The notes under the pieces were generated by a model. It saw only the letters and a program-made list of their open reading frames with translations, did no database searches and was not told where the DNA came from. From Eremomyces bilateralis CBS 781.70 (taxonomy: Eukaryota > Ascomycota > Dothideomycetes > Eremomycetales > Eremomycetaceae), in the NCBI RefSeq assembly GCF_010015585.1, contig NW_022985074.1, positions 744,026 to 808,025 of the forward strand: a DNA stretch of 64,000 bases, in the 5' to 3' direction. The position numbers and the translations under genes are program-made. Shown here in pieces: positions 35,824 to 50,562 of this stretch; the stretch's first letter is position 1; each line of letters opens with the position of its first letter.

Positions 35824-36557
35824 AGTGAACTGAACCAACAGGACCGCTCGTCTCTTCTTCTTGGGTTCTGAACAAGTGACACCAACAAATGTTTGGATGA
35901 GGCTAAGATATGCGCACTGTCAGGAAAGGGATAAGGGAAGCGCTATATTTTGGTCCTCTGATCCGGATGAAGGAGATATGGGAGACTCAAGTCGACTGAG
36001 GAAAGGGGTGTAAGAGGCTAGACAGCATAAAGGGTAGAGCAATGGAATAACCAGAATAAACGTGCTATATCCAAATAGAGCATGAACCATGAACTGAAGG
36101 TAAAACTGGGAAGCGAAGTGAAAGGACGAGATGCTATGTCAGATGCATCATGGCTTCACTTGAGGGATGAGGTGGCTGGGAGGGTTGGTCAATTCCGGTT
36201 GGAGGTCGGTGCTTGTGATGTTTACTGGCCATGTGTGGCTGGGCTGTGGCGCACCATGTCCATCCTGTCACGTGTAAACAAACAAAATAGTATCACGTGC
36301 AATCCCTCTGTCCATGTCACGTGCATATGACTCTCCAGTACGTTCCTGCATCACGTCGGGATTTGTCCTTTGTGAAATTGTGAGTGCAATATCTCGGGTT
36401 GATCCACATATTGAGGTTCTTTATACGTATCCTCAGACTGCCCAAGCTCTTTAAACCTCAATTGGTCCATCTCGCTGGACAAGTTTGCAGATTGTAAAAG
36501 GATCCTTCCCATTCTTGGGTGGAGAGTTATACCTCAGCAACCGTTCAGCTCTCCACC
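35824..36557. promoter_or_regulatory. Bidirectional promoter with three evenly spaced TCACGTG boxes
   Basis: The cores CACGTG lie at 36269-36274, 36294-36299 and 36318-36323, each preceded by T, so the boxes are 25 and 24 bp apart. TCACGTG is the site of Cbf1-type bHLH factors in yeasts. The boxes are about 240-290 bp from the DUO1 start and 450-500 bp from the divergent gene. No other gene is seen in the interval. Confidence 0.55.
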
Positions 36558-37166
36558 ATGGATTCGGAACCGGACTCTCCCACCGACCATCTCTTCGACA
36601 GTCCTCCTCCCCACCCCCCCTCTTCCAAAACCTCGAAACCGTCCCCCGCAACCGATCCCAGTCCCACAAACCCTCAACCACGGTCCGCATCTACACGCTA
36701 CTCCGACGCCGAAGCGCGGGACGCCTCCCTCAAAACCGAGCTGCAGTCCCTCCGCCGTGTCAACGCCACCCTCGACGCGCTCATCGCCTCCTTACGCACC
36801 GCCAAAGGCAACATGTCGACCCTGTCCGGCACCCTCGCCTCCAGCACCACGTTGCTGGACTCGTATTCCCGCATCCTCAGCCTGACGGAGCACCATAACC
36901 GATTGATCCTGGATCCGCGATGGGACGGCGCGAGCGGGGACGTCGCAGAGATGGAGCGGGAGGAGGAGGCGAAGCTCGAGCGGGAGCGGGAGCGGTCGAG
37001 GATAGAGCAGCGGAGGAGGGAGGAGGAGGAACGGAGGAGGGAGGAGGCAGAGCAGAGAAGGTTAGTTGGGGCGAGTAGTAGAGGGAGGGGTGCAAGTGGA
37101 ATCGGGCGAGGTGGAATATCAAGCGGAATCGGGAGAGGGGTACGCGGAAGGGGGAGGGCGGCATAG
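36558..37166 (+). CDS. DUO1: DASH (Dam1) complex subunit Duo1
   Basis: Core subunit of the fungal DASH ring, which couples kinetochores to microtubule plus ends. Single exon, 202 residues. A Pro/Ser-rich N-terminal tail precedes the conserved domain starting RYSDAEARDASLKTELQSL and continuing through AKGNMSTLSGT, STTLLDSYSRILSLTEHHNR and LILDPRWDGASGDVA. The C-terminal part is a highly charged helix of RRREEEE repeats, then an Arg/Gly-rich tail. This layout matches filamentous-fungal Duo1 closely. The start is in a CCACCATGG context. A GTTAGT at about 37060 could be read as a donor, but the frame through it continues into a Duo1-like RG tail, so no intron is assumed. Confidence 0.9.
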   Translation: MDSEPDSPTDHLFDSPPPHPPSSKTSKPSPATDPSPTNPQPRSASTRYSDAEARDASLKTELQSLRRVNATLDALIASLRTAKGNMSTLSGTLASSTTLLDSYSRILSLTEHHNRLILDPRWDGASGDVAEMEREEEAKLERERERSRIEQRRREEEERRREEAEQRRLVGASSRGRGASGIGRGGISSGIGRGVRGRGRAA

Positions 37167-37584: not shown

Positions 37585-40500
37585 TTACATCCCTTGCGAT
37601 CCATCTCCTCCGCTCGGCGATCGGCCTAATCCCCCAATGCGACTATCGAATCCAAATGACCCCGTGCCAACATTCCTCTGCAGGCCAAGTCCCGCGCCCG
37701 GTGCCATGCCCGGCGCGAGGGGCGCTCCGAACGAGTGATTCGGTCCTGCTCCGAGTCCCGGTGCAGCTCCGAGTCCCGCTAAGGGGGAACCCACGCCGAG
37801 TCCAGGGAGCGGGCTCGTTGAATCCGGTTCCCACTTGACGAACGTCCGCTGATCCTCGCCGGGTCCGATCCAGGCGATGCTGGCCGCGTCGTCCTCGGTC
37901 CGGAGCTGGAACGTTCCGCCACCGTTGTTCGAATCGCCTTCGGTTTCAAAGATCTGCATAAGTTCCTTATGTGTGACCTGGCCAATCTCGGGAGGTTGTG
38001 AGCTTTGGACGGCGGCGTACACATCTCGGACTTCGTGGTAGCCATCAATCTTCTTGGCAGCCGCGGAACCAGGACTCTCGGCCACGCCCGGAGCCGTGGA
38101 TCGTCGGGGTGCTGCAGCGGACAGTGTTCGACACGCTTGGCAGGCAAGAAGGCGGATGGTGACAGGTCGAGAGCTACGATGGTGAGATGGGGCTGGCCAA
38201 GGGTTGCCGGGACTCGCTCCCCAAGCACTCGAGCCCGTCAATCCGGACATGAGCCCTGCAGAGCCGAAGGAATTGGCAAGCGGGGGCGTGCTCCAGACCG
38301 TCGATCCGGGGATTTGAGCCCCTGGTGGCGATGGCTCACGACCGAACATCGTTGGCATCTGGTACATGCCGGGTCGGCTGTCTTGACGGCCAATGGGAGG
38401 AATACTCGGACGCCGACCACTTGACGGGCCCGGATATGGATCATCTACATCATCGAGCAATGCAGAGCTACCGAGGTGCCGAGACAAATCATCAATCGGA
38501 TCAGTCGAAAGAGACTTATGTTCGTGCTCGTGCGGCTTCACACTGGACGGTCTCTGGATAGGAGCGGGTCGTGAAATTGGTTGCGCCAAAGACTGTGAAG
38601 CCCCTGGTGGACCATCATACGAACCCGACGGCTGGCGAGAATGAGGCTGAGGGATGTCCTTCCCTATGCCGGGGGGTCCGAATGCGTTGAAATTTACAGG
38701 CCCAGACATGGGAGGAAGTGGACTGGGAAATCCGGGCGGAGGCTCAAATGCACGAGAACCGGGCATCGGTGGCTGCATAGGATGGTGCAACCCCGGAGGT
38801 CCTTGGCCAGGCATCCCATAAGGAGGCATCGGGCGAAACTGAGGTCCCATCGGGAGTTGATGGGTGGTGAAAGGTGATACGTTCGGACCCCCGTGCGGGA
38901 TTGGGCTGATTCCCTGCCCTGGAGACAGTTGAGGTTGACCGGTAGGGCCAAACGTCGTAGGAATTCCAAACCCAGATGCTGCCTGAGATACAGGAAGACC
39001 CGGAGGGGAAGCCAGTGTTCGAGGTGGGGAAGAAGGGTGAGAACTCGAGAGCGGGACCTGTTGTTGACTGGGCCTTTGGAGAATAGACCTTGGTGTTGGA
39101 ACCGGATGAGATGCAGCTGCATTATTCGGAGATGCCGACTTCGACGTGGCTGACGAGATATTCGGTGTTTTAGGCGGAGTTACATGACTACCCGGCTGTG
39201 AGCCTTGCCTTGCTCGCAGACCAGGCGTAGGAACCTTCCCCATGACTGGAGTTGCGACCGGAACGGCGGGGGAAGCATAACCGGAGGGCTGTTTGTGAAG
39301 GCCCGGTGGTATTGCGACGGCAGGTTGAGTAGGTCTTTTGGATGCTTGGGCCTGCAGGTTAGCTTGCGATAGTTGCGATGCTTGGTTCGCGCCCTTCCGG
39401 TTGTGGACCGTCTGGGCTTGAGCCTGCGCCGCAGCCTCCAATCGTAAAGGGGCCTCCTTCGCTTGACGTTCGAACTCCGCTTGGTGCAAGGCATCCCGTT
39501 GTTTGCGTCCCTTCTCCTCCTGGAGCTTCCTCTCCCGGGCCTCCTTTTCACGGGCTTCACGCTCGTCGCGTTCCCTTTTCTTGGCATCGTCTTTGGCCTT
39601 TTTCTCCAGGGCCTTGGCTTCCGCTTGCTTTCGTTGTGCTTCCAGCTGCCGCTCTTTCTCCTCTTGTTGTCGCCGAAGCCGCTCCGCCTCTTTCTTTAGT
39701 CTCTCCTCCTCTTGGGCTTTCTTCTCCGCTTCCTTCTTCCTCTTCTGTTCTTCCCGCTTCTTTCGTTGCTCTTCGGCTTTCTGGGCTTCGGCGGCCTTGG
39801 CTGCGGCTTCTTCCGCTGCTTTCTCGGCCTCGCGTCGAGCCTTCTCTTCAGCCTTGGCCTGCTTCTGCTGGAGCTTCTTGTCTTTGCGCTTTTGGGCGTC
39901 GCGAGCTTTCTTGGCGTCCCGCTCCGCACCCATACGCTCCTCCTCCTGGATCTCCTCGAGGAGTTTCTGCTGTCGCTCCTGGGCCACTTTCTCGCGGTAC
40001 GCGGTGAGGACTCGCTGCTCAAACATCCGGGCGGCGAAGATCTGGAACATGCGGCGGCCTTCTTCCATACGCTGCTCTTCGGTCATGGCATCCTAATTCC
40101 CGGTCAGAACCCTCTTCGTTTCAATGGGGGCGTTCACAAACCATCTCCTCATCCTCCTCGTACTCCTCGTCTTCGCTGTACTCCTCTTCTTCTTCCTCGT
40201 CGTACTCTTCGTCGTCGGGAGGATAAGCGTGAGTATGGGCCCCATGAGAATGCATCATGTTCGCGGCAGCATGGATTGCCTCCTCTTCGCGTTGCATCCG
40301 TCGTTCGGCGAGCTGCTCCATCATTTCGATGAATTTCTTGCCATCGTTTTTCAGCAAATCGTCGGCAACGGTCAGTATGCCCCCTGCTGCAAATCGGATT
40401 AACTCTCCGCCCGACATTGTGTTGGGAGTCCACTATACCTTTCACGGTCAAGCTGTTCCCAAAGTTCAGGAAGTCGGCGGCGGGACCACGAGGTATCTCT

Positions 40501-41504
40501 TCGGAGACATCGTCACTATACTCGTCGTAATCTTCGTCGCTGTACTCCTCCTCTTCCAGATCATCTTCTTCCTCGTCCTCCTCGTCCTCCTCGTCCTCCT
40601 CATCAAGCTCGTCGTCGACGAGATCGACCTGCGAGGCACCGGGGGTTGCATGGTCGATCAGACGATGCATGCGATCGGGCGGCAACCTGGCATGTTGTTG
40701 GCCATTCTGTCTCACCTGAGGGGGTGCGGGCAGGCCGTTGCTTGGGATGTGCTGGTGATGTGCGTACTGTTCAAGCTCATCATAATATGCGTCATATAGC
40801 ACTTCCAGCTCCTCCTCGATGGCGACGCGCTTTCGACCACAAACCGTGCAGCTGCAGGAATGCTTCTGCTGCTCCTTCATCTTCCGCATGACCGCGTCTT
40901 TCTCGATCTTAACCAGTGACTTCCGCTCGTCCTCGCCGAGAGAGAGCCAAAACTCCTTGATTCGCTCCCGCTCTTCTTGCGTGGACGTGTTCCAGATGCG
41001 GTCCTTGGTTTTAGCGTGTTTGGGTCGAAGAGCATCGGACGAGGAAGGGCCAGATAGAGTCGAGACAATCCCATGGGTATGAGGCCCATCAACGGCAGAG
41101 GCTCCGGATTTCGACTTTTTCTTCTTCTTAGATTTCTTCTTCGCCCCATTCGTCGCCTCGCCCGTGTGACCGTTCGGTAGAGCGGACGGGAACCGGGGGT
41201 CCCTTGGCAGGTCGGCGTCGCTGTAGTAAACGTCATCCGGCCCCCCAGGTTGTCCTTGATAATCCAGGTCGGCGTCATCGAATTCCTCTGCACCATGATC
41301 CGTATCTGGCATCGGAGGAGACCGTAAGTGCGCTCCCTGTGACACATGGGCGGCGTTCGGCAAACCACCGGTCGGCCGACCTTGCTCGGCCGCTTGTTTG
41401 GCGGCCTGCTTCGCTCGACGCTTCTGTTTCTTCCGGTTGACGATAGGGGGGATGGACGAGGCAGAGCCAGCGACGGCTCCATTGTTTACTGAGTTTCCCG
41501 GCAT
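37585..41504 (-). CDS. NST1: Stress response protein Nst1
   Basis: Fungal cytoplasmic protein first linked to salt tolerance in yeast; its molecular role is poorly defined. The model has exons 41504-40439, 40386-40142 and 40092-37585, about 1272 residues. The N-terminal part has a [11 protein letters not shown] run, then [21 protein letters not shown] and [10 protein letters not shown], both family marks. A long acidic tract precedes the first intron and a second one closes exon 2. The central third is a very long charged helix rich in Lys, Glu, Ala and Arg (about 490-640). The rest is Pro/Gln/Gly-rich. The C-terminal part has [16 protein letters not shown], as in other Nst1 proteins. The first intron ends in a tandem CAGCAG acceptor. 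The start is divergent from the Rho2-type gene. Confidence 0.9.
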
Positions 41505-42650
41505 CGGGTCCCAAGATGAGGTCGTCTTGGGAGGTTTGCGGGGTGGGTGGATGGAGAGCTGCGATAGCAGAGGTCGCGGAAGTGGTCAGCCCTTCTTCCA
41601 AAGCCACTGGTGACCTGGTCAATAAGCTCGAAAGTCATCCAACGGCGAGTGTGAGTGGCGCGTGGCGGTCTAGCGGAGTCGGTAGCGATATGATGTCGAG
41701 GATAACTAGCCCTTTTCCCAGAAGTGAGTCGATTGTCAGGGCTCTCAGGACCGAAGCAGACGCGTGGACAGCTCCAGAGCGGTGGAAGAGCGGATGGAAT
41801 CGACGGAGACTTCAGCAAGGCAATGCTCGAGGAATCGGATACGGGGAAGTAAAGTGGTGGATGTTTAAACTCTACAGGAGAGAAACGTGAATTGCCCGCA
41901 GAGACCAGAGAGCGTTGGTTATGCAGGTTCGGTCTTGGCGAAAACCGGCAGGGCAGCGGCGGTGCAAGCAATGGGTGGTTCCTGCCCTGCACTGTTGGAT
42001 TTAAGGCGTCAAGGCATCACTCTATCAGACACCACTCTATCAGAAATTCGGAATTCAGACATCACTCTGCACTCACGTGATCTGGCACTACCATCCTTGC
42101 ACAGCCACACTTCTCACTCACCAGGCCACCACAGCCGCAGCTCAACCCCGACTCCCCGAGTCCCCGACAGTGAGACACAACAGTGAGACCACCACCACCG
42201 CTGCCACCACCACTGACTAGACGCCATTCTAAACTTCCTTCTCCCTCCATCTCAACCTCACCCACCGAACGCTTTTCCCACTCCGCTTCCTTTCCCTATT
42301 CCTTCCCCTTCGTGCTGGCGACGGAGCGATCAATCTCTGCTGGTCCCAGGATCCCGCCTCAGCAATTGCCATTGTCTCTCACAGCTTACAGCCTGTCGAC
42401 CAGGGCTTGGAACCGTTGATCATCGAGACAACATCCCGATTCCCCACCCTACCCAATCTTCCCCGACTCCGACCACGATCGCGATCCGAAGACGACTCGA
42501 CGACCGAACTCCTGGACGCTTTCACGACGACGTGACAGGCTGTCCATTCTCCCCGTGCGGAAACCCGTGCAGCTAGGCATCGATCATCGGTTCGAGTCCT
42601 CAACGTCAGCTAAGGCGGAACCCTCGGAATACACATCCTCAACCGGCGAT
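41505..42650. promoter_or_regulatory. Divergent intergenic region NST1 / Rho2-type GTPase
   Basis: 1.1 kb with both promoters and a long leader before the GTPase. A 12-bp direct repeat (CACTCTATCAGA) lies at 42018-42029 and 42033-42044, and a TCACGTGA box spans 42073-42080. From 42180 on the sequence is pyrimidine-rich leader. No gene was recognised. Confidence 0.5.
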
Positions 42651-43772
42651 ATGGCACAGAATGGGGAAACGGTGATGAGGAGGTAAGTTTGCAGAAGGTC
42701 ATAATCTCCTTCAAACTTCAATCACGCCGAACATATCCACCGCATCCCAATATCCAACCCTTTCTTCCCTGTGGCGCTGTTGTGTCACTTCCAGTGCAGG
42801 AGTTCGAATGTCGCACGTATCAGGATGCCTACTACCAGTCCCTCCTTTCTTCCCCCATCCCTCTCTCCCAGCCTTGGGAAGTGTAAACTACCTTCTTTTC
42901 TCCTCTTTCGATTTTCTCGCGGTCGCCAAACCGGTTTTAGGATGATGTCGCCAAAAATAGTATACCGATTGGAACCCCTGCCGCGCTATTCCGTCACTTT
43001 GTCGATTCGGTGTCTTGCTTCCAAATAGACTTGACACAAGTTCTCAGGACTATTACCGATGCCCACTTACTAACCCGACTGCTTGTTCAGGAAACTAGTC
43101 ATCATTGGAGACGGAGCCTGTGGGAAGACAAGTTTACTCAGTGTGTTCACATTAGGTTATTTTCCACCGGTATGGCGAGATACCTCATATTCATATGGAT
43201 CGACTGGCTAACAATAGTCGGTAGAGATATGTATGTAGACTCAATAGCCTAGCCGCATGCAGCAGTCCATACTCATCCGCGACCAGGTTCCCACCGTCTT
43301 CGAAAACTACGTTACAGACTGCCGTGTCGATGGAAAATCAGTGCAGCTCGCTCTCTGGGATACCGCCGGGCAAGAAGACTACGAGCGACTCCGACCGTTA
43401 GCATACTCCAAAGCCCATGTCCTCCTCATTGGCTTCAGCGTTGACTCTCCCGACTCACTCGAGAACGTCAAGGCGAAATGGGCTGAAGAGGCCCGAGAAC
43501 GATGCCCGGGAGTCCCGATTATACTGGTTGGTCTGAAGAAAGATCTAAGAGACGACCCGCTCGCGCAGGAAGATATGCGCAAGAAGAGCCTACGGTTTGT
43601 GACGGCGAAAGACGGAAGCGAAATGAAAGACCTCATCGGCGCCCGGAAATATCTGGAGTGCAGCAGCTTGACTGGAGATGGCGTGGACGATGTGTTCGAG
43701 GCCGCGACACGAGCCGCCTTGATTGCTGGGGACGAAGGGAAGGGCCGGCCCGGGTGCTGCGTCATTCTGTGA
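42651..43772 (+). CDS. rho2: Rho-family GTPase, Rho2 type
   Basis: Membrane-bound small GTPase; Rho2 proteins act in cell polarity and wall synthesis upstream of protein kinase C. The model has exons 42651-42682, 43091-43169, 43225-43230 and 43287-43772, 200 residues. The P loop GDGACGKTS, the switch II region [25 protein letters not shown] and ECSSL are present. The tail CCVIL is a CAAX box with Leu, predicting geranylgeranylation, and the extra Cys may be palmitoylated. Switch I needs two residues between YFPP and VPTVFENY. They are supplied by a 6-nt exon (AGATAT, Arg-Tyr) flanked by TAG and GTATGT, with a CTAAC branch site before it. The 408-bp first intron lies after codon 10. Assignment to Rho2 rather than another Rho rests on [18 protein letters not shown] and is moderately sure. 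Confidence 0.88.
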
Positions 43773-45860: not shown

Positions 45861-47762
45861 ATGTCCGACGTGATTCCCAAGGCGCTGCTCGAGGCTACTG
45901 CGAAGCACCCCAAGGGGAAGGACCTCGTGTTTCAATATGGGACAGCTGGTGTAAGTTCCGCCTTTACAGTCCAGGATGCATGACACTGACGTCAACATCT
46001 AGTTCCGCCTGAAGGCGTATGCATTGTGCCAAGAGAATATTGGTATCATCTTCATCGCTGACCAGCATGCTGTAGGAACCTCCTTGGCTCTGTGGTCTTC
46101 CGAGTCGGGCTTCTGGCTGCTTTGCGCTCCAGGAAGTTCAATGGCCAAACCATTGGCGTCATGATCACTGCGAGTCACAATCCTCCTGAGGACAATGGTG
46201 TCAAGCTCGTTGATCCAATGGTATGTTCCTTGAACCTCGTGCTGAATTCGTGTTTAGCATATGGCTGACTATATCGTATAGGGAGATATGCTGGAGGTAC
46301 AGTCATTATCACCTTACACATTCGCCTTAGATGCTAACAATATTGAAAGGGTACTTGGGAACAATATGCCACTCTACTTGCCAATGCTGGGAATGATGAA
46401 GCCCTGGTCGAAGCGTATGAACAGGTGGCGGAGGAGCTGAAGGTGAACCTCAATGCGCCTGCTCGCGTGGTCTTTGCCCGAGACACCAGAGCGTCCGGTT
46501 TCACTCTGGCTGCGGCTCTTGTCGATGGGTTGAAGGCGCTCAATGTTGAGTATGTCGACTTCAAGATCCTCACCACTCCCCAACTCCACTATCTAGTCCG
46601 CTGCATAAATACGAAGGGGACCCACTTTGAGTATGGTGAGCCAACCGAACAAGGCTATTATCAGAAGATTGCGACTGCCTTCAAGAACGCCATGGCAGAC
46701 AAGAAGCCCAAGGGTTCTGTCACAGTGGACTGTGCCAATGGCGTCGGAGGCCCCAAGCTTCATGAGATGATCAAGTATCTGCCTCCAGGAATGCTCGATA
46801 TTCGTGTGGTGAACGACGATGTTCTGAAACCCGAAGCTCTCAATGTACAGGTACGGACGGCATGATCGTTTAAAATAGGTGAACTGTCTGACATCGTATA
46901 GTGTGGCGCCGACTTCGTCAAGACGCAGCAACGTCCGCCTCCGTCCTCGAAAGCCGCTCCGCATGAGCGTCACGCCAGCCTTGACGGCGATGCCGACCGT
47001 GTCGTGTATTACTTCCTCGATCGCGAGTCCAACTTCCGTCTCCTCGACGGCGATCGGATTGCAACGCTCGCCGCTGGCTTCCTCGGAAACCTCGTCAAGC
47101 TGGCCGACCTCTCTGATGAGATTACGCTTGGTGTCGTGCAAACGGCCTACGCCAACGGAGCGAGCACCAAGTACCTCACGGATGTGATGAAGCTCCCGGT
47201 AGTGTGCACCAGCACTGGTGTTAAGCACCTGCATCATGCCGCCCAACGCTTCGACATCGGAATCTACTTCGAAGCCAACGGGCACGGTACGGTTCTGTTC
47301 TCTCCCGATGCGCTAAAGGCCATCGAAACCCGTCAGCCGAAGTCGCCGCATCACGCCTCCACTCTCAAGATTCTAACTGCCGTCACCAACCTCATCAACC
47401 AAGCCGTCGGCGACGCCATCTCGGACATGCTCCTCGCGGAGGTGATCCTAGCACATATGGAATGGAAGCCCGAGAACTGGCTTGCAACTTACACCGACCT
47501 TCCGAACCGCCTTGTTCGAGTCGAAGTGCGGGACCGCACCATCTTCAAGGCCACGGATTCCGAACGCAGGCTGGAAAGCCCCAAAGGCGCCCAGGATGAG
47601 ATCGACAAACTGGCTGGCAAGTTCTGCCTTGGCCGGAGCTTCGCACGAGCTAGTGGCACGGAGGATGCAGTCCGAGTGTACGCGGAGGCTGCCACCCGCG
47701 GAGAGTGCGATGAGTTGGCGCGTGGGGTCGTGATGGTGGTGCAGAAATATGGAGCACTCTGA
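45861..47762 (+). CDS. PCM1: Phosphoacetylglucosamine mutase
   Basis: Converts N-acetylglucosamine-6-phosphate to the 1-phosphate on the way to UDP-GlcNAc, the donor for chitin, N-glycans and GPI anchors (also called AGM1). The model has six exons: 45861-45950, 46003-46016, 46076-46220, 46282-46296, 46350-46850 and 46902-47762; 541 residues. Two exons are very short (14 and 15 nt) yet needed to build [20 protein letters not shown] and VDPMGDMLEGTWEQYA. The phosphoserine loop is [12 protein letters not shown] (Ser about 68), the metal loop [11 protein letters not shown], and the C-terminal phosphate site [15 protein letters not shown]. All catalytic loops of the family are intact. Confidence 0.95.
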
Positions 47763-49094: not shown

Positions 49095-50562
49095 ATGAAA
49101 TCGGGAAAATACACGATCGAGGAGGCTCGACAATTAGATGCCGCAGATCCTCTCGGCCACCTCCGTGAGGAGTTCACCATTCCGTCCAAGGGTGACCTCA
49201 AACGAAGGAACCTGAAGCATGATGGCGACAAAGAGCCCGGAGACGAAGATCCATCCATTTATCTCTGCGGCAACTCGCTGGGCTTGCAGCCGAAAAGGAC
49301 CACGGAATACATTGACAGATATCTAAAGACTTGGGGGACGCAGGGCGTGTACGGTCACTTCAAGGAGTTCGACGATGCGTTGACGCCTCCCTGGGTTGAT
49401 ATCGATCTTGCAGCTAGGGGGCGAATGGCGACGGTCGTTGGTGCGAACGAAGAGGAGGTCGCCATAATGGGCACCCTCACAGCGAACCTGCATTTCTTGC
49501 TGGCAAGCTTTTACAAACCCACCAAGGAGAAGTACAAAATCATAATCGAGGGGAAGGCCTTCCCCAGTGATCATGTAAGCCACATTTGCACTCTTGCATT
49601 ACGCTAGAGTCGAGGTTGAGACTCACTGGCTACAGTATGCGGTCCTCTCTCAACTCGCTCATCACTCCTTGCCGGCGGAAGCGCTGATAACCATCGATCC
49701 CCCTGACCCAGAGATACATTACCTTCCGCTGGACCACATTTTGTCTACCATCTCCGCCCATGCGTCTGAAACCGCTCTCGTCCTCCTCCCTGGGGTGCAT
49801 TACTACAGCGGCCAATTCCTCGAGATCCAGAAGATCACCGCTCATGCCCACGGTCTTGGCATCACTATCGGATGGGATCTCGCTCACGCAGTGGGCAATG
49901 TGCCTCTTGCGCTGCATGATTGGGACGTAGACTTCGCGACATGGTGCAGCTACAAGTACCTCAACGCCGGCCCTGGCGCGATTTCCGGCCTCTTTGTGCA
50001 TGGAAAGCACGGTGAGGTGGTGCGGAGCCCCAGCGCCACGGAGAGCGAGACTGAGCAGTTCGAGTACACTCCAAGGTTCTCAGGGTGGTGGGGGAGCGAG
50101 AAATCCACGAGATTTCGGATGGAGCCTGTTTTCCGACCTATCCCTGGCGCTGCCGGGTGGCAAGTGAGCAATCCGAGCGTACTGGATACGACGTCGTTGG
50201 CTGCCAGTCTGTCGGTGTTTGCCAGGACGAGTATTGCATCCCTCAGGGAAAGGAGTCTACAGTTAACGCAATACCTGGTGGAATTGCTCGACCATGCAGA
50301 AGATGGAGACACCGCTCAGGGGTATAGGATTATCACTTCCAGGAATCGCGATGAGCGAGGGGCACAGATCAGCATCAAGCTAGACGAGGGATTATTGGAT
50401 AAAGTGATGGAGATACTCGAGAAGGAGGCCGTGGTGGTGGATGAGCGGAGACCAGACGTGGTCCGGGTTGCACCAACCCCTTTATATAATACTTTTGAGG
50501 ATGTTTGGAACTTTGTAAAGATATTCCGGGCGGCCTGTAAGGACGCAATCGCTGCCGCTTAA
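49095..50562 (+). CDS. BNA5: Kynureninase
   Basis: PLP enzyme splitting kynurenine and 3-hydroxykynurenine into (hydroxy)anthranilate and alanine, in the tryptophan-to-NAD pathway. The model has exons 49095-49574 and 49636-50562, 468 residues. IYLCGNSLGLQP near residue 55 and GTLTANLHFLLASFY near 125 are family marks. The fold-type I Asp lies in GWDLAHAVGN. The PLP lysine is in WCSYKYLNAGPG (Lys about 267), followed by GWWGS. The C-terminal RPDVVRVAPTPLYNTFEDVW completes the enzyme. The 61-bp intron (GTAAGC...TACAG) falls at FPSDH|YAVLSQ, a conserved segment. Downstream the gene converges tightly on the WD40 gene, with only 45 bp between stop codons. Confidence 0.95.

Follow-up and report, generated by a model that had tools for sequence, protein, structure and literature searches.

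How a Rho-type gene that is interrupted within switch I could still encode a complete switch I is the question raised by a locus of Eremomyces bilateralis CBS 781.70. The locus lies in a 64,000-nt stretch of DNA (hereafter, the window), which is part of contig C8 in a genome of 26.6 Mb and 62 contigs. An earlier, sequence-only reading of this stretch had proposed that the missing piece is supplied by an exon of six nucleotides. Here, we weigh that proposal against the other ways in which the interruption could be spliced, and we consider how such an exon may have arisen.

The Rho-type gene and the interruption in switch I

When spliced, the gene at 42651-43772 encodes a 200-residue protein that runs from MAQNGETV to CCVIL (Table 1). 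By sequence comparison, the product is a Rho GTPase: it matches the Pfam Ras family (PF00071) at 1.4e-44, and its closest solved relatives are Rho1 (9.2e-73) and then RhoA. The protein terminates in CCVIL, which we take to be a CAAX-type motif, with putative lipidation. The gene is putatively assigned to the Rho2 subfamily, the genome containing separate Rho1-, Rho3-, Rho4-, Cdc42- and Rac-like genes. In a Pfam scan of eight neighbouring reading frames, five scored above the family cut-off, and these are included in the table; their identities are in keeping with an ascomycete.

Table 1. Features of the Rho-type gene and of neighbouring reading frames with Pfam matches, in window coordinates
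Feature	Position	Strand	Description and basis
Coding exon 1	42651..42682	+	10 residues plus two bases of the R11 codon; by frame and donor, with putative start codon
Intron 1, 408 nt	42683..43090	+	Putative; GTAAGT to TTCAG, with TACTAAC 5' of the acceptor
Coding exon 2	43091..43169	+	P-loop GDGACGKT to GYFPP; spliced alignment with solved Rho1
Intron 2, 55 nt, phase 0	43170..43224	+	Donor CCG/GTATGG, CTAAC; spliced alignment, paralogues
Microexon AGATAT, 6 nt (predicted)	43225..43230	+	Arg38-Tyr39 of switch I; spliced alignment, scheme enumeration, chance control
Intron 3, 56 nt, phase 0	43231..43286	+	Donor TAT/GTATGT; spliced alignment; absent from five other Rho paralogues
Last coding exon	43287..43772	+	VPTVFENY to CCVIL and stop; reading frame
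DASH Duo1	36498-37163	+	Pfam match
NST1	40152-41585	-	Pfam match
Mitochondrial L28	44449-45216	-	Pfam match
AMG1 mutase (domain III)	46902-47759	+	Pfam match
Kynureninase	49579-50559	+	Pfam match

The interruption within switch I is an interval of 117 nt (43170-43286). CCACCG ends at 43169 and is followed by GTATGG from 43170, the sequence GGTAG/AGATAT/GTATGT lies inside the interval, and ACCAG ends at 43286 ahead of GTTCCC from 43287. All of this matches the sequence-only reading, which had quoted a range comprising the exon itself together with both of its introns. Joining 43169 straight to 43287 leaves an 11-residue segment that is two residues shorter than its counterpart in the genome's five other Rho-type genes. 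Two residues occupy the gap site in all five of these paralogues and in three solved Rho1 proteins with displayed alignments, and the second is always Tyr, while the first, at the position of the Arg, varies among homologues. The earlier expectations that Rho proteins have two further residues here, ending in Tyr, and that this Tyr would be lost without the exon are thus both borne out.

We enumerated splicing schemes that place no more than one exon between a first donor in 43140-43215 and a last acceptor in 43225-43310. The sole GT-AG scheme among these that gives GYFP, three residues and then VPTVFENY consists of a 55-nt intron, AGATAT and a 56-nt intron, and these are the intron lengths that had been proposed. 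If introns in the 20-29 nt range and GC donors are also allowed, a Pro-His scheme appears; we rejected it, as it relies on a GC donor, includes an intron of only 28 nt and does not provide the Tyr. The x-Tyr of the 10-residue Rho switch I sequence is obtained only with the microexon included. Spliced alignment with solved Rho1 as the query, using a purpose-written script whose sole splice requirement is GT-AG, also recovers the microexon, and the two approaches together agree with the proposal of Arg-Tyr in phase 0. With the exon, the Ras profile score is 151.9 bits versus 142.1 without it, a gain of 9.8. At 6 nt and with GT-AG introns on both sides, AGATAT falls within the definition of a microexon as an internal exon of no more than 30 nt with canonical sites, and it codes for a residue, the Tyr, that is conserved in homologues.

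From these comparisons, we read the locus with considerable confidence as a Rho2-type gene of four coding exons, in which the third is AGATAT, short introns flank it and the switch I Tyr is kept. A coding exon of six bases is thus very probably present in this Rho-type gene, and the mature protein would read without a gap through a 13-residue segment spanning the site.

Splice sites, chance expectation and competing schemes

The reference for splice-site quality consists of 33 introns, none longer than 200 nt, predicted in Ras-superfamily genes of the same genome; 34 were collected, one with a poor donor (L018) was left out of the profile, and one of the 33 that were kept has a donor of -9.4 bits and may be wrong. 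Against this set, the donor of intron 2 (CCG/GTATGG) is weak at 4.2 bits, with 4/33 reference donors scoring lower, and the same GTATGG is used by one reference intron (L038). The donor of intron 3 (TAT/GTATGT) is ordinary (19/33 lower), as are the acceptors of introns 2 and 3 (15/33 and 28/33 lower, respectively); all four scores lie inside the reference range. Lengths of 55 and 56 nt both fall inside the commonest reference class of 49-58 nt (15/33). The CTAAC that had been noted 5' of the exon is present, its A being 13 nt from the 3' end of intron 2. The only branch motif that we find in intron 3 is a minor one, CTCAT, 11 nt from the 3' end; CTRAY occurs in 27/33 and YTNAY in 32/33 reference introns. 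CTCAT is listed among the minor branch motifs of Fusarium introns in the relevant passage of a published study (PMC5677156). Farther upstream, the donor of exon 1 (GAG/GTAAGT) scores higher than all 33 reference donors, and intron 1 is long, at 408 nt versus 49-140 nt in a reference set limited to introns of up to 200 nt. The spliced alignment with solved Rho1 starts only past this intron.

In the splicing pathway that we propose, each of the two introns would be recognized by intron definition, and they would be removed one after the other. Because both are short and each has its own sites, either may go first, after which the 6-nt exon would lie within an exon of normal size, and the microexon would be included in nearly all mRNA. 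Retention of intron 2, intron 3 or both leads to an early stop, while skipping of the microexon keeps the frame and deletes Arg-Tyr.

Since skipping is in frame, there is room for a regulated isoform, with the microexon taken in or left out by condition and two in-frame Rho2 isoforms that would differ by Arg-Tyr. An upstream donor and a downstream branch motif that are weaker than usual would suit such a cassette, and the 20-nt regulated microexon described for Xlr2 of Trichoderma virens (PMC11121469) offers a precedent. Against this, the sequence bears no sign of regulation, and we consider a regulated cassette very unlikely. A Rho isoform without the switch I Tyr is likely impaired. The corresponding idea of a splicing switch, in which alternative splicing of two codons, beyond GEFs and GAPs alone, would set the level of signalling-competent Rho2, has in our view only a slim chance of being correct.

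The interval could also be a single 117-nt intron, in which case the product would be a Rho protein minus two switch I residues and AGATAT would be coincidental. The length is divisible by 3, the joined frame is open, and 5/33 reference introns are at least as long, which places 117 nt within the range. We compared the two schemes by spliced alignment over a grid that combines six Rho queries (solved Rho1 and the five paralogues) with two gap costs and eight values of the intron penalty. A single intron, at the price of a two-residue gap, is favoured in 11/96 settings, all with an intron penalty of at least 16 and 10 of them at the lower gap cost, whereas the microexon is recovered in the other 85. 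A single intron would discard a Tyr that all five other Rho paralogues have, and in the Rho1- and Rho4-like genes the matching intron directly precedes x-Tyr.

Coincidence can be gauged from 200,000 dinucleotide shuffles of the interval interior, in which both introns had to be at least 42 nt. A stop-free arrangement of AG, six nucleotides and GT arises in 18,361 shuffles (9.2%), and one with Tyr as the second residue in 1,431 (0.72%). Adding a consensus donor and a YAG acceptor to the x-Tyr site leaves 20 shuffles (0.010%), and requiring CTRAY as well leaves 3 of the 200,000. The consensus conditions were set post hoc on the real site, and therefore 0.7% is the fairest chance figure. Overall, we regard the single intron as highly improbable. 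Finally, a stwintron, in which two nested introns are excised one after the other with no sequence retained between them, is hardly credible here: stwintrons are reported in fungi (PMC12403724, PMC5639578) and two short introns lying side by side in a fungal gene invite the comparison, but the definition given in those reports, at least in the passages concerned, has an internal intron interrupting a splice element of the external one, whereas both introns at this locus have their own GT and AG with no interrupted element needed, and full excision would cost two residues conserved in the paralogues.

Intron positions in the paralogues and a proposed origin of the microexon

A six-base exon between two short introns, the reading that we prefer, can be set against the gene structures of the five other Rho-type genes, which we take to be Rho1-like (L007), Rho4-like (L008), Rho3-like (L005), Cdc42-like (L006) and Rac-like (L009). 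The Rho1-like gene has a 113-nt phase-0 intron at FPE/VYVPT, which is the codon boundary of intron 2, and the Rho4-like gene has a 56-nt phase-0 intron at the matching boundary, FPE/KYVPT. Given these introns, the exon after intron 2 is expected to start with x-Tyr, as is found. Unlike the window gene, L007 and L008 have no second intron 6 nt downstream, and the coding sequence of the 10 residues after FPE is uninterrupted. Spliced alignment reveals no intron at the intron 2 boundary in the Rho3-, Cdc42- and Rac-like genes, and the Tyr/VPT boundary, which is the position of intron 3, is uninterrupted by the same method in 5/5 paralogues. The initial paralogue alignments carried a risk of circularity in that their query was a Rho2 protein already containing Arg-Tyr; when L005-L009 were aligned instead with solved Rho1, with and without its two switch I residues, the switch I introns were unchanged in 10/10 runs.

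Because the upstream intron position is common to L007 and L008 and the downstream intron is present in none of the five paralogues, a later intron gain is the simplest history. An old intron would be common to the Rho1, Rho4 and Rho2 genes, and the Rho2 lineage would later have gained a second one, placed 6 nt downstream of it, such that the microexon is most simply explained as the piece left between them. The downstream intron may instead have been lost repeatedly in the other paralogues, which is a less simple history.

Two specific sources for the second intron were considered and are unsupported. For an introner-type origin, a genome search with each intron at E values up to 10, which may miss diverged copies, returned only the self match and thus no near-identical copies. 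For a duplication of intron 2, the similarity of introns 2 and 3 is matched or exceeded in 474/2000 shuffles. When the Rho2 protein was used to query viral_contigs and genome_contigs, there was no fungal relative among the results of this search, which, as a single-protein query, reaches close relatives only. With six aligned Rho proteins as the query, viral_contigs gave one locus, L056, at 25% identity.

Two further observations concern intron positions elsewhere in these families. The Rho1-, Rho4- and Rac-like genes have in common a phase-0 intron farther downstream, at a K/W boundary after query residue 103, and this intron is missing from the window gene. Separately, a Ras-like gene (L033, contig C35) has an apparent 17-nt exon at 1371-1387 that reads YDPTI and is flanked by introns of 77 and 117 nt; it too lies in switch I, but at a different place from AGATAT.

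Significance and comparison with known small exons

Fungal exons as short as 1-6 nt have been described before, in the sources cited below, and the kind of exon is therefore known. What is added here is that the upstream intron position is common to Rho1- and Rho4-like genes, which would explain why the microexon exists. The locus would thereby illustrate cleanly how a tiny exon originates, with a second intron placed close to an old one in a conserved protein stretch, and, given the paralogues, this history can be tested in related fungi. A gene model without the exon would yield a Rho2 lacking its switch I Tyr, a wrong protein that would nonetheless look plausible because the reading frame stays open.

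Among the matches listed for the open-licence literature, we found no report of a microexon in a fungal Rho gene; a match for microexon and rho2 concerns Schistosoma, judging by its title. Two other matches are not comparable as far as the matching text goes: what a Rhodosporidium paper (PMC4624585) calls a 6-nt exon is part of exon 2, 6 nt long, placed in a construct, and the microexons of a Cryptococcus paper (PMC3990503) are a TopHat setting only. For Rho2 itself, the Aorho2 gene of Arthrobotrys oligospora is described as having 6 introns (PMC8754127).

The known systems below are compared on the basis of the relevant passages of their reports. The nank genes of Tuber melanosporum have codon-sized microexons (PMC3689799, citing Iotti et al. 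2012) and are alike in being tiny exons of a filamentous ascomycete, but they number in the tens, are alternatively spliced and diversify an expanded family. Trichoderma virens Xlr2 likewise provides a microexon of a filamentous ascomycete that was missing from the annotated gene model; however, its 20-nt exon is glucose-dependent and was tested by overexpression (PMC11121469), while the exon in the window is 6 nt long and without sign of regulation. A closer match in size comes from the P450 genes of Phanerochaete chrysosporium, where the shortest exon is also 6 bp, or 2 aa (PMC1184071). Like the window gene, these are members of a conserved family in a fungus with very short coding exons and small introns, although they are basidiomycete P450 genes from a survey of assembled genes, which, in the passages concerned, involves no GTPase switch region.

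The sequence-only reading had placed 6 nt near the lower limit for any eukaryote, a view that is outdated given the Phanerochaete exon and exons of a single nucleotide in Arabidopsis APC11 (PMC4674806) and Fusarium CYP621A (PMC12940212). The Fusarium exon has support from SRA reads and from 20 orthologues (24 genes aligned). It differs from the window gene in its length of 1 nt, its many orthologues and its reads, the window exon being 6 nt long and predicted from the sequence of one genome. The two are otherwise alike: both belong to ascomycetes, in both the micro-exon restores a conserved motif (in the window, on our reading), and in both the clue is a long intron together with a missing piece of the protein.
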